Shown piece by piece: positions 5,020 through 53,524 of a stretch of DNA of 55,788 nt (positions within the stretch are counted from its first letter, which is position 1; each line of letters starts with the position of its first letter). The DNA comes from Alphaproteobacteria bacterium (GTDB lineage: Bacteria; Pseudomonadota; Alphaproteobacteria; Sphingomonadales; Emcibacteraceae): contig JAJRQU010000036.1 of NCBI GenBank assembly GCA_024280095.1, positions 1 to 55,788 on the forward strand, read 5' to 3'. The notes beneath the pieces were generated by a model. The model searched no databases, was not told the origin of the DNA, and saw only the letters and a list, made by a program, of their open reading frames with translations. A program made the position numbers and the translations under genes.

Positions 5020-5039
5020 CCGGGGATATATTGCCTTAC

Positions 5040-5136
5040 ATACTATAATTTTCTATAAAATTTGTCCAGACGGTAAAAAAATATTCCCGGCGACTGTAAT
5101 TTTTATACTATAGAACCATTATCTTCGTATACTATA
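5040..5136. repeat. Three ATACTATA direct repeats upstream of the phosphorylase gene
   Basis: The octamer ATACTATA occurs at 5040-5047, 5105-5112 and 5129-5136, in very AT-rich DNA ending 49 bp before the start at 5185. The last two are 24 bp apart. They may be regulator half-sites or overlapping -10-like elements for the rightward unit. No function is demonstrated. Confidence 0.35.
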
Positions 5137-5184
5137 TATAAAATATACCCTGCTTTCCAAAATTAATTTTCTCTGGAGTAAAAA

Positions 5185-6024
5185 ATGCCGCAACAAGAGT
5201 TTATCCCGCAACAGGTCGAGAATAGTGTCGCCGCCATTAAGGCCGCTCACAAAGGTGAATTCCCGAAAGTCGCCCTTATATTAGGCAGCGGGCTTGGCGC
5301 ATTCGGAGATAATATGACGCCCGGTACCATTATCTCATATGATGACATACCTGATTTCCCCCAACCGACGGTGAAAGGTCATGCCGGAAGGCTTCTCATC
5401 GGTAAAGTTGGCAAGACACCGCTGCTCTGTATGCAGGGCCGCATGCATCTATATGAAGGACATCCCGCTGAAAGGCTTGCCATTTCCATCCGAACATTCA
5501 AGAAGCTCGGCATAGAAAAACTGATCATCACCAATGCCGCTGGCAGCCTGCATCGGGATATGCCCGCAGGTTCCATCATGTGCATAGATGATCATGTGAA
5601 TATGTCCGGCCATAATCCTCTGATTGGCCAAAATGATGATACTGTCGGCCCGCGTTTCTTTGATATGACTGAGGCCTATGACCCTGAAATGCGCCGCAAA
5701 TTAGCCGAGTCCGCCAAGGCACTGGGTATCCCGCTTCATAACGGTGTTTACGTTCAGCTTGCAGGGCCAAATTTTGAAACACCCGCAGAAATCAGAATGC
5801 TGGGCAAGCTCGGCATTGATGCGGTCGGCATGTCAACGGTGCAGGAAACGCTCGTGGCGCGCCATGCGGGCATTGATGTGGTGGGCATATCCCTGATCAC
5901 AAATCTGGGCGCGGGTCTTTCGCCTACCCCCCTGTCCCACGAGGAAACCTTAAGCGAAGCTGAAAAAGCCTATGGCAATATCAGCCGTCTGCTTGTACAT
6001 TTCATTGATGGTTTATCCCTTTAA
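5185..6024 (+). CDS. Purine-nucleoside phosphorylase (trimeric, PNP family)
   Basis: This enzyme phosphorolyses purine (deoxy)nucleosides to free base and (deoxy)ribose-1-phosphate. The 279 residues show the trimeric PNP pattern: LILGSGLG (phosphate site) at 31-38, VKGHAG at 63-68, GRMHLYEGH at 85-93, NAAGS, VQLAGPNFETPAEIRML, and GMSTVQETLVARHAG followed by ITNLGAG with the base-binding Asn. Length and motifs fit the inosine/guanosine phosphorylase class rather than the hexameric DeoD class, so I leave the symbol empty; such genes are often labelled deoD or punA. A GGAG site precedes the ATG. It heads the rightward unit with the sugar kinase and phosphoribosyltransferase genes. Confidence 0.95.
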   Translation: MPQQEFIPQQVENSVAAIKAAHKGEFPKVALILGSGLGAFGDNMTPGTIISYDDIPDFPQPTVKGHAGRLLIGKVGKTPLLCMQGRMHLYEGHPAERLAISIRTFKKLGIEKLIITNAAGSLHRDMPAGSIMCIDDHVNMSGHNPLIGQNDDTVGPRFFDMTEAYDPEMRRKLAESAKALGIPLHNGVYVQLAGPNFETPAEIRMLGKLGIDAVGMSTVQETLVARHAGIDVVGISLITNLGAGLSPTPLSHEETLSEAEKAYGNISRLLVHFIDGLSL

Positions 6025-52039: not shown

Positions 52040-52783
52040 CTATAATCGGTCAATGAGCATCTTGATGAAAAGGCCAAAGGAGATTGTAATAGAAAAACTG
52101 GCCATCGTACCAATAAGAATATATTCGTTTATTTTCCTGTGGTTATTCTCTTTGCTGTCCCCAAAACGGAGTATGGACTTGGCGGCGAGTAAAAAACCGA
52201 TTGCGGTGAATTGCCCCGCGATAATGAAGGTCAAAATCAGAAAACGTTCTATCTGACCAATCATCCTGCCCGCATTGGGAAGCGACCCCATTCCCGTAAT
52301 TTCAGCCGCCCATCTCTTGCAAATCAAACCTATGATCATTGAAAATGGCCAAATCACGATGAAATAAGCGACGATGGCCAGGAGTATTTTTTCATTCAAG
52401 GCCAATTCTGCCATGTGGCCCAATAGAACCCATTGATCTGTCACCGCAATCCAAACGTAGAAAATCACCAGCAGATGAGCCAGTTGATCAATGACAAACC
52501 ATATTATGTCTGTTCTGTTTAAATAAGATTTTATAAGGTCAATCAGGAAATGTGTTGTCCCGATAATCAAAGCAAAACCAAGTAATTGCCATGATGACGG
52601 CATTATAAACCCTAAAACGGCAAGGCTTAAAAAGCTATGTATGATAAAATGGATATAAAGTCGTTTGGATTTCCAATGTTTCGCATAACGTTCATCTATC
52701 CAATCGGACTTTTGCAACACAAAGTCTCCCATCAGGTGAGCCAATACCAGCAGCAATAAAAGCGGGGTTTCAGTTATGGTCAT
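52040..52783 (-). CDS. DUF3307 membrane protein
   Basis: A 247-residue membrane protein. The N-terminal signature LLVLAHLMGDFVLQKSDWID, with conserved His/Asp, followed by HFIIHSFLSL and GTTHFLIDLIKSYL is the DUF3307 pattern. About six membrane helices follow. The recurring His and Asp residues inside helices could bind a metal or a lipid headgroup, but the function is unknown. Its start overlaps the SatD-like gene end by 14 bp, so the two are almost certainly translated together. Confidence 0.85.
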   Translation of the reverse strand: MTITETPLLLLLVLAHLMGDFVLQKSDWIDERYAKHWKSKRLYIHFIIHSFLSLAVLGFIMPSSWQLLGFALIIGTTHFLIDLIKSYLNRTDIIWFVIDQLAHLLVIFYVWIAVTDQWVLLGHMAELALNEKILLAIVAYFIVIWPFSMIIGLICKRWAAEITGMGSLPNAGRMIGQIERFLILTFIIAGQFTAIGFLLAAKSILRFGDSKENNHRKINEYILIGTMASFSITISFGLFIKMLIDRL

Positions 52784-53423
52784 TATCTATTTCCCATTTG
52801 ATATATTCTGTTACATGGCGAATATATGCCGCGATTAAATCCAGTTTTGCCGTCGCAATACGGCTGTTGATCGTGGGCTGACTTTTGTTTAACCGCTTGG
52901 CCAGAAGACTTTGGGATTCATTATAAACAAGGTTATAATAGGCCGTTTCTGCAGAATATCGGGACCAGCGGCTAATAATATCATCGGCAAAACGGGTATT
53001 AAGAGACAGCATTTTTTCTGTTTGTGGCCATGGCGACTTTATCAGCAACCGGTTTTTATTATGGTTCAGATCATCACTGGCTTTGCCGGACAAATGAAAG
53101 GCCGGGCCGTCTGAATCTGTAATACCAGCACCCCAGTAACTAATACTGCCAAGGCCAATAGCAATACGCGCATCCCATCGTTCCTTCTTCTGTGGTGAAC
53201 ATGATATAAGCTTTGAACGAATAATGATAGCCGCAATCGCCGCGTCAGAAGCGGCAGGGATAACGACCTGAAAGCTGTCCCCTCTGTATAAAATATAGTC
53301 AGCCTGATACTTTTCTTTCACCGTATCAAGGGCTTCGGTAAGCGTTTCTATGAGCTTTTTCTTTAAAGCAACCTGACGTGATTTTACAATATCGCCGGTC
53401 AACACCGCATATATGGCCATCAT
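52770..53423 (-). CDS. SatD-family-like protein with C-terminal helix-turn-helix
   Basis: A 217-residue protein. The N-terminal domain has VLTGDIVKSR (D11), YRGDSFQVVI (D49) and ARIAIGLGSI (86-94). The C-terminal segment NESQSLLAKRLNKSQPTINS (168-187) is a helix-turn-helix. The layout fits SatD-type proteins often paired with DUF3307, first noted in streptococcal acid tolerance. The two Asp motifs plus RxxIGxG match the order seen in class III nucleotidyl cyclase palms, so a nucleotide-related activity is possible, but no such activity is shown. AGGAG lies too close to the first ATG (53423), so the next ATG (53420) may be the real start. It is the first gene of the pair, behind a half-site array. 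Confidence 0.75.
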   Translation of the reverse strand: MMAIYAVLTGDIVKSRQVALKKKLIETLTEALDTVKEKYQADYILYRGDSFQVVIPAASDAAIAAIIIRSKLISCSPQKKERWDARIAIGLGSISYWGAGITDSDGPAFHLSGKASDDLNHNKNRLLIKSPWPQTEKMLSLNTRFADDIISRWSRYSAETAYYNLVYNESQSLLAKRLNKSQPTINSRIATAKLDLIAAYIRHVTEYIKWEIDNDHN

Positions 53424-53459
53424 TTCTCCTGTAAATCAGAAATATATAGCCCAAAACGC

Positions 53460-53524
53460 CTATAATGTCAAATTATAGTTAAAAACATCTATAATTAAGA
53501 AATATAGATTAATTCATCTATAAT
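53460..53524. promoter_or_regulatory. Array of CTATAAT half-sites upstream of the SatD-like gene
   Basis: CTATAAT (53460-53466) and ATTATAG (53472-53478) form a perfect palindrome around GTCAA. CATCTATAAT recurs at 53486-53495 and 53515-53524, 29 bp apart, with an inverted partial copy ATATAGAT at 53502-53509 between them. The array starts 36 bp upstream of the gene. It may be an autoregulatory operator for the HTH-bearing protein; TATAAT cores also look like -10 elements. Confidence 0.5.

Follow-up and report, generated by a model that had tools for sequence, protein, structure and literature searches.

The described proteins closest to SatD are the class III nucleotidyl cyclases, including Ma1120, Rv1625c, the bacterial photoactivated cyclases and PycC of Pycsar. 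These share with SatD the palm fold, both metal-binding Asp residues, the D-I/L-x-x-S loop and the R-x-x-I-G strand, and they provided its best profile and Foldseek matches. SatD differs from them in lacking the adenine-specifying Lys and the transition-state Asn, and in having a fused helix-turn-helix (HTH), an obligate membrane partner and its own operator array. The palms of GGDEF and Cas10 proteins also resemble SatD in fold (VIA-align Z 10−11.3) and some SatD sequences have xGDEFQ at the second Asp; however, GGDEF or GGDD proper is absent from SatD and the gene context is different.

The second related system is Panoptes, OptS/OptE (mCpol + 2TM-beta). The Panoptes reports (PMC12657218, PMC12657230) describe two genes that pair a palm-type protein with a transmembrane (TM) protein, for which, as for SatD, loss of the palm gene would be expected to be harmful. 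OptS is presented there as an mCpol domain, whereas SatD is a predicted palm-HTH fusion, and OptE has a beta-barrel sensor, whereas the SatD partner is predicted to be all-helical and looks unrelated. An operator array was found at satD, whereas none is mentioned in these descriptions of Panoptes.

SatD of the streptococcal sat operon (SatD/SatE) belongs to the same Pfam family. In S. mutans, SatCDE, Ffh and YlxM were reported together at SMU.1057-1063 (PMC12077213). In S. pyogenes, satD is present in 71% of genomes and is the single ‘essential accessory’ gene, no other accessory gene having an essentiality score in the top quarter (PMC11323703). While the SatD and DUF3307 families are known, no description of a SatD/DUF3307 palm, pairing or array was found in the open literature, where neither the module and its architecture nor the fold assignment appears to have been described; a report in a subscription journal or preprint is possible.

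Predicted fold of SatD

The window, which is the whole stretch of DNA analysed (55,788 nt), was annotated from sequence in a first pass that called a SatD-like protein. The ORF call, on the minus strand, and a match to Pfam SatD (PF16264; 30.3 bits, E 4e-7, just exceeding the cut-off of 29) supported this. The features of the gene are as follows.

52770..53423, minus strand: satD ORF, 217 aa, class III cyclase-like palm plus HTH
53034..53411, minus strand: palm domain, residues 5-130 (AlphaFold2 secondary structure, Foldseek/VIA matches, Ma1120 profile match)
53391..53393, minus strand: codon of D11, first metal Asp, invariant (131/131; in register with Ma1120)
53277..53279, minus strand: codon of D49, second metal Asp, invariant (131/131; in register with Ma1120)
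52845..52961, minus strand: HTH, residues 155-193 (AlphaFold2 helices, family Pfam matches, operator covariation)

A profile of 59 SatD homologues was compared with all PDB sequences, and the best match was the class III adenylyl cyclase Ma1120 (E 3e-4). Both Asp residues were in register in the alignment, together with the R-I-x-I strand: D-I-V-x-S of SatD fell on D-I-E-E-S of Ma1120, G-D-x-F on G-D-G-F and R-I-x-I on R-I-x-I. The AlphaFold2 (AF2) model of SatD had a pLDDT of 96.8 and a pTM of 0.93. In Foldseek searches with this model the highest-ranked structures were class III cyclases, among them the cUMP synthase 7r65 (PycC) and Rv1625c, and the GGDEF domain of DosC was within the top ten; VIA-align gave Z values of 10−11.7 for the palms of cyclases, GGDEF proteins, GTP cyclohydrolase III and Cas10. 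A BFVD search returned generic cyclase/GGDEF palms only. When the SatD profile was aligned by hhalign to one PycC and one GGDEF protein, no match was obtained, these templates being single sequences without depth.

Sigma70-region-4 (sigma70_r4) or HTH Pfam matches were present in many SatD members, and the AF2 model placed the HTH helices at residues 155-167, 171-177 and 182-191. The first-pass annotation had recognized the motif order of a class III cyclase palm by eye, fused to an HTH, and had proposed that profile searches and structure prediction be compared with cyclase and GGDEF palms. That comparison yielded a ferredoxin-like palm and not some other fold, the motif order was recovered in the Ma1120 alignment, and the HTH was recovered in both the family matches and the model. 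SatD is thus confidently predicted to consist of a palm of the class III cyclase/GGDEF/Cas10 type and an HTH.

PHROGs and PADLOC contained no family for SatD, and the PADLOC models for PycC and PycTM matched neither SatD nor its partner in the window. The Pfam SatD model missed a clear SatD in another genome (L055, G650), so family counts based on it are too low.

Conservation of the metal site

D11 and D49 are, as first noted, 38 residues apart in the ORF. Their conservation across SatD homologues had been put forward as a check on the cyclase assignment. D11, S15 and D49 were found to be identical in all 131 homologues that covered the site (89/89 in the first set), an invariance which held down to 16−20% overall identity and included archaea, and which points to strong selection on the metal/triphosphate site.

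The residues associated with cyclization were less well kept. The adenine-specifying Lys position, four residues before the second Asp, was mostly Ile, Leu, Met or Phe. Positions 110 and 114 were taken, by eye and from secondary structure, as the counterparts of the transition-state Asn and Arg. Position 110 was V/R/Q/E/H/K, and position 114 was Arg in 82/132 sequences and Lys in the window protein. The GG(D/E)EF signature of diguanylate cyclases was likewise absent, the SatD sequence being RGDSF (majority) or LGDEF. Residues conserved specifically in SatD were R47 (or L), R86, G106, A108, S112 and G113.

By sequence, SatD is not a canonical class III cyclase, as the adenine Lys and the transition-state Asn are missing. 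The conserved metal site makes it likely that SatD binds a Mg-nucleotide, which it may or may not also synthesize, with Lys and Asn absent and Arg only partly kept. Of the earlier proposal of a nucleotide-sensing or nucleotide-making regulator, the binding part is therefore likely, and the making part found no support in the cyclization residues.

One degenerate SatD was met, in Aerococcus tenax (L102, 4917-7709). It lacked both metal Asp residues and had no membrane partner, the next gene encoding a DUF975 protein instead, and it adjoined a ribonuclease/barstar pair.

The membrane partner

The gene following satD had been described as encoding an overlapping DUF3307 membrane protein, and both points were confirmed (DUF3307, E 3e-25; overlap 14 bp).

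52040..52783, minus strand: membrane partner, 247 aa, 14-bp overlap with satD (ORF call, Pfam, locus counts, predicted structure)
52439..52762, minus strand: DUF3307 domain with invariant His/Asp in predicted helices; missing from short partners
52046..52285, minus strand: C-terminal TM/short helix/TM block, common to long and short partners

Partners were of two sorts, comprising either DUF3307 followed by the C-terminal block or the block alone (about 105−165 aa), and the block is accordingly the conserved core of the partner. Its motif is GxxIGxxERxxI...AAKSxxRF...EYxLIGTxxS, with a predicted TM/short helix/TM arrangement. In the DUF3307 domain the invariant residues H16, D20, Q24, H45, H78, D82, K85, D99 and H103 lie in predicted helices and look like a metal site. 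One short partner (127 aa; L006, 2113-2496) carried an EF-hand/dockerin-like loop, DVNRDGDIDQKD, between the first TM helix and the conserved block. The first-pass annotation had missed two features, namely the operator array and the role of the C-terminal block, rather than DUF3307, as the conserved part of the partner.

The partner was predicted to be all-helical, with no soluble nucleotide-binding domain such as the beta-barrel of OptE. Fold searches with it gave no significant match (Foldseek best E 0.38), and VIA Z values of 7.3 or less were in the range of common helical arrangements. TRP/Kv pore-like matches to its C-terminal half were set aside.

Pairing of satD with the partner

A collection scan seeded with the partner identified 80 genome loci, 79 of which had a SatD ORF immediately upstream in the same orientation, in most cases with an overlap; the lone exception begins at a contig end. 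In loci seeded with SatD, the partner was present in 29/30 from Bacteroidota (the exception being a short contig) and in 7/7 from Pseudomonadota. The pair was found in Bacteroidota, Pseudomonadota, Fusobacteriota and archaea, and no third gene recurred in the neighbourhoods compared. A first pattern scan of genome contigs with SatD alone gave no match, and A1 was too divergent to serve as a search query. The coupling of SatD to a membrane partner suggested from the window alone is thus a lasting genetic pairing in the 79/80 and 29/30 loci, and satD and its partner form a conserved, near-obligate two-gene module.

Distribution and mobility

SatD was present in only a few per cent of Pseudomonadota genomes, in 0/15 same-genus relatives and, by the insensitive Pfam model, in 37/198 Bacteroidota. 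The best-matching SatD proteins came from distant taxa. In the nearest relative (L158), an SDR dehydrogenase gene takes the place of the pair between the same two genes, methylmalonyl-CoA mutase and gluQRS. The SatD-DUF3307 pair was the main cargo of 3,770 bp ColE1-like plasmids (E. coli pEC34A and five from Klebsiella) and of a 4,424 bp ColE1-like plasmid, and haloarchaeal plasmids also bore the pair. The operator CAACC..GGTTG was seen by eye on plasmids of both sizes (L094, L095). There was no pEC34A-like copy in E. coli complete genomes and no SatD relative in a known-phage collection. A viral contig (L092, about 5028-5534) held a decayed copy in which SatD was lost and the partner lacked its N-terminal part, retaining the remainder with the C-terminal block.

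On a Sphingomonas insulae plasmid (L100, 1162-8652) the pair adjoined a Pycsar operon (PycC, E2-type protein and PycTM-type effector) and a ThsB-like TIR gene (Thoeris-type), and on another plasmid (L097) it lay beside GajB (Gabija). A defence neighbourhood was not the rule on chromosomes, where the commonest PADLOC family matched 2/135 neighbour proteins at 1e-15 and the neighbours had mostly housekeeping functions (Pfam).

These surroundings bear on two alternative explanations of the module. In the first, the palm would constantly make a nucleotide product that binds to the membrane partner and keeps it inactive, and depletion of the product, for example by a phage sponge, would free a membrane-damaging effector. 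Such inhibitory signalling would share the two-gene logic of OptS/OptE, in which an mCpol palm restrains a TM toxin (PMC12657218, PMC12657230), and it is consistent with satD being essential yet accessory in S. pyogenes (PMC11323703), with carriage as cargo of 3.8−4.4 kb plasmids and with the Pycsar/Thoeris-type and Gabija genes beside two plasmid copies. The location of chromosomal copies outside defence neighbourhoods argues against it, and since the predicted partner lacks a beta-barrel sensor and SatD a complete set of cyclization residues, we regard it as the second choice, and as unlikely.

In the second, SatD would be a physiological stress regulator that senses a nucleotide and controls a membrane protein, either an enzyme or a transporter, serving in acid or envelope stress, with no toxicity and no role in conflict. 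The sat operon of S. mutans has been linked to acid tolerance (PMC11323703, PMC12077213), the invariant His/Asp residues in the predicted helices of DUF3307 resemble a metal enzyme, and housekeeping genes predominate around the chromosomal copies. This explanation is quite improbable given the wide horizontal spread, the tiny-plasmid cargo, the accessory yet essential behaviour and the short partners that lack DUF3307 altogether.

The operator array

The region upstream of satD contained an array of palindromes that recur every 28 or 29 bp exactly. In the window, three copies were present.

53445..53466, minus strand: operator copy 3, nearest satD, ATTATAGGCGTTTTGGGCTATA
53474..53495, minus strand: operator copy 2, ATTATAGATGTTTTTAACTATA
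53503..53524, minus strand: operator copy 1, ATTATAGATGAATTAATCTATA
53443..53471, minus strand: TTGACA-N17-TATATA promoter-like site (consensus match only), overlain by operator copy 3

The promoter-like site at 53443..53471 was not listed by a stricter promoter scan. When the intergenic region of the window array was shuffled 1,000 times, no shuffle scored as high as the array itself. At lag 28 or 29 and a score of at least 12, the array was detected in 61/100 satD upstream regions, but in none of 1,020 random windows drawn from these loci and none of 528 regions upstream of other ORFs (0/1,548 in total). An independently gathered set gave 14/30 against 1/300 control windows. About a third of satD loci showed no clear array by this simple lag test.

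The operator sequence varied by lineage while the 28/29-bp spacing was constant.

CAACC/GGTTG: many Bacteroidales
TATCG/CGATA: Alphaproteobacteria and Flavobacteria
TTAGCC/GGCTAA: Vibrio and Colwellia
TTCGCC/GGCGAA: haloarchaea

Genome-wide searches by pattern were performed in three lineages. In the window genome the three perfect operator matches all lay at 53445-53524, and weaker matches were at the level of the reversed-pattern control. The exact operator occurred only at satD in the other two genomes (5/5 in L055 and 6/6 in L047). Operator similarity tracked HTH similarity once the similarity of the palms was corrected for (partial r 0.23, permutation p 0.001), and followed palm relatedness more strongly (partial r 0.47). 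On the basis of the enrichment of the array, the restriction of the operator to satD in the three lineages and the covariation of HTH and operator, SatD very probably binds its own upstream array.

An autoregulatory array, together with overlapping genes, tiny-plasmid cargo and a sporadic distribution, would also be compatible with an addiction module of the toxin-antitoxin kind, in which repression or direct contact is all that SatD uses to restrain the membrane protein, the palm being a structural relic. The identity of D11, S15 and D49 in 131/131 bacterial and archaeal sequences is unexpected of a relic and leaves this explanation very doubtful.

Proposed mechanism

We favour a model in which SatD, responding to a nucleotide, represses its own gene by assembling on the array and keeps the membrane partner in check, the two genes forming a self-contained, horizontally moving control module; we consider the case for and against it to be about evenly balanced. 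The HTH would bind the palindromes upstream of its own gene. Since the spacing is fixed and the sequence is not, the 28/29-bp period would bring neighbouring DNA-bound SatD dimers into contact, probably via their palms. The palms of cyclases are dimeric. Cooperative assembly of this kind over the promoter would make SatD an autorepressor. As the Mg/triphosphate site is kept and the full cyclization set is not, the palm is most likely a nucleotide sensor, or else produces an unusual nucleotide. A change in the nucleotide would alter SatD assembly and hence how much of the membrane partner is present or how active it is; this partner may be harmful if unrestrained. A nucleotide-binding repressor that autoregulates a two-gene unit would account for the array, the HTH, the invariant metal site and the obligate partner.

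The autorepressor model also suggests a reason for the essentiality of satD in S. pyogenes: satD may be essential yet accessory because it restrains something encoded beside it. Such essentiality would not be universal, since non-polar mutants of every S. mutans sat gene were reportedly viable (Kremer, 2001).

More tentatively, and with somewhat less than even confidence, the module may represent a categorically new arrangement, in which a cyclase-type palm polymerizes on a phased DNA array and links the state of the nucleotide both to transcription and to a membrane effector of the TM/short-helix/TM type, as a mobile stand-alone switch of bacteria and archaea.

The findings join SatD and DUF3307, two families of unknown function, in one near-obligate module, and so turn them into testable biology. 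The module may also account for the ‘essential accessory’ gene of S. pyogenes. Should the palm indeed assemble on DNA, it would connect nucleotide signalling with transcription in a manner undescribed in the literature found.
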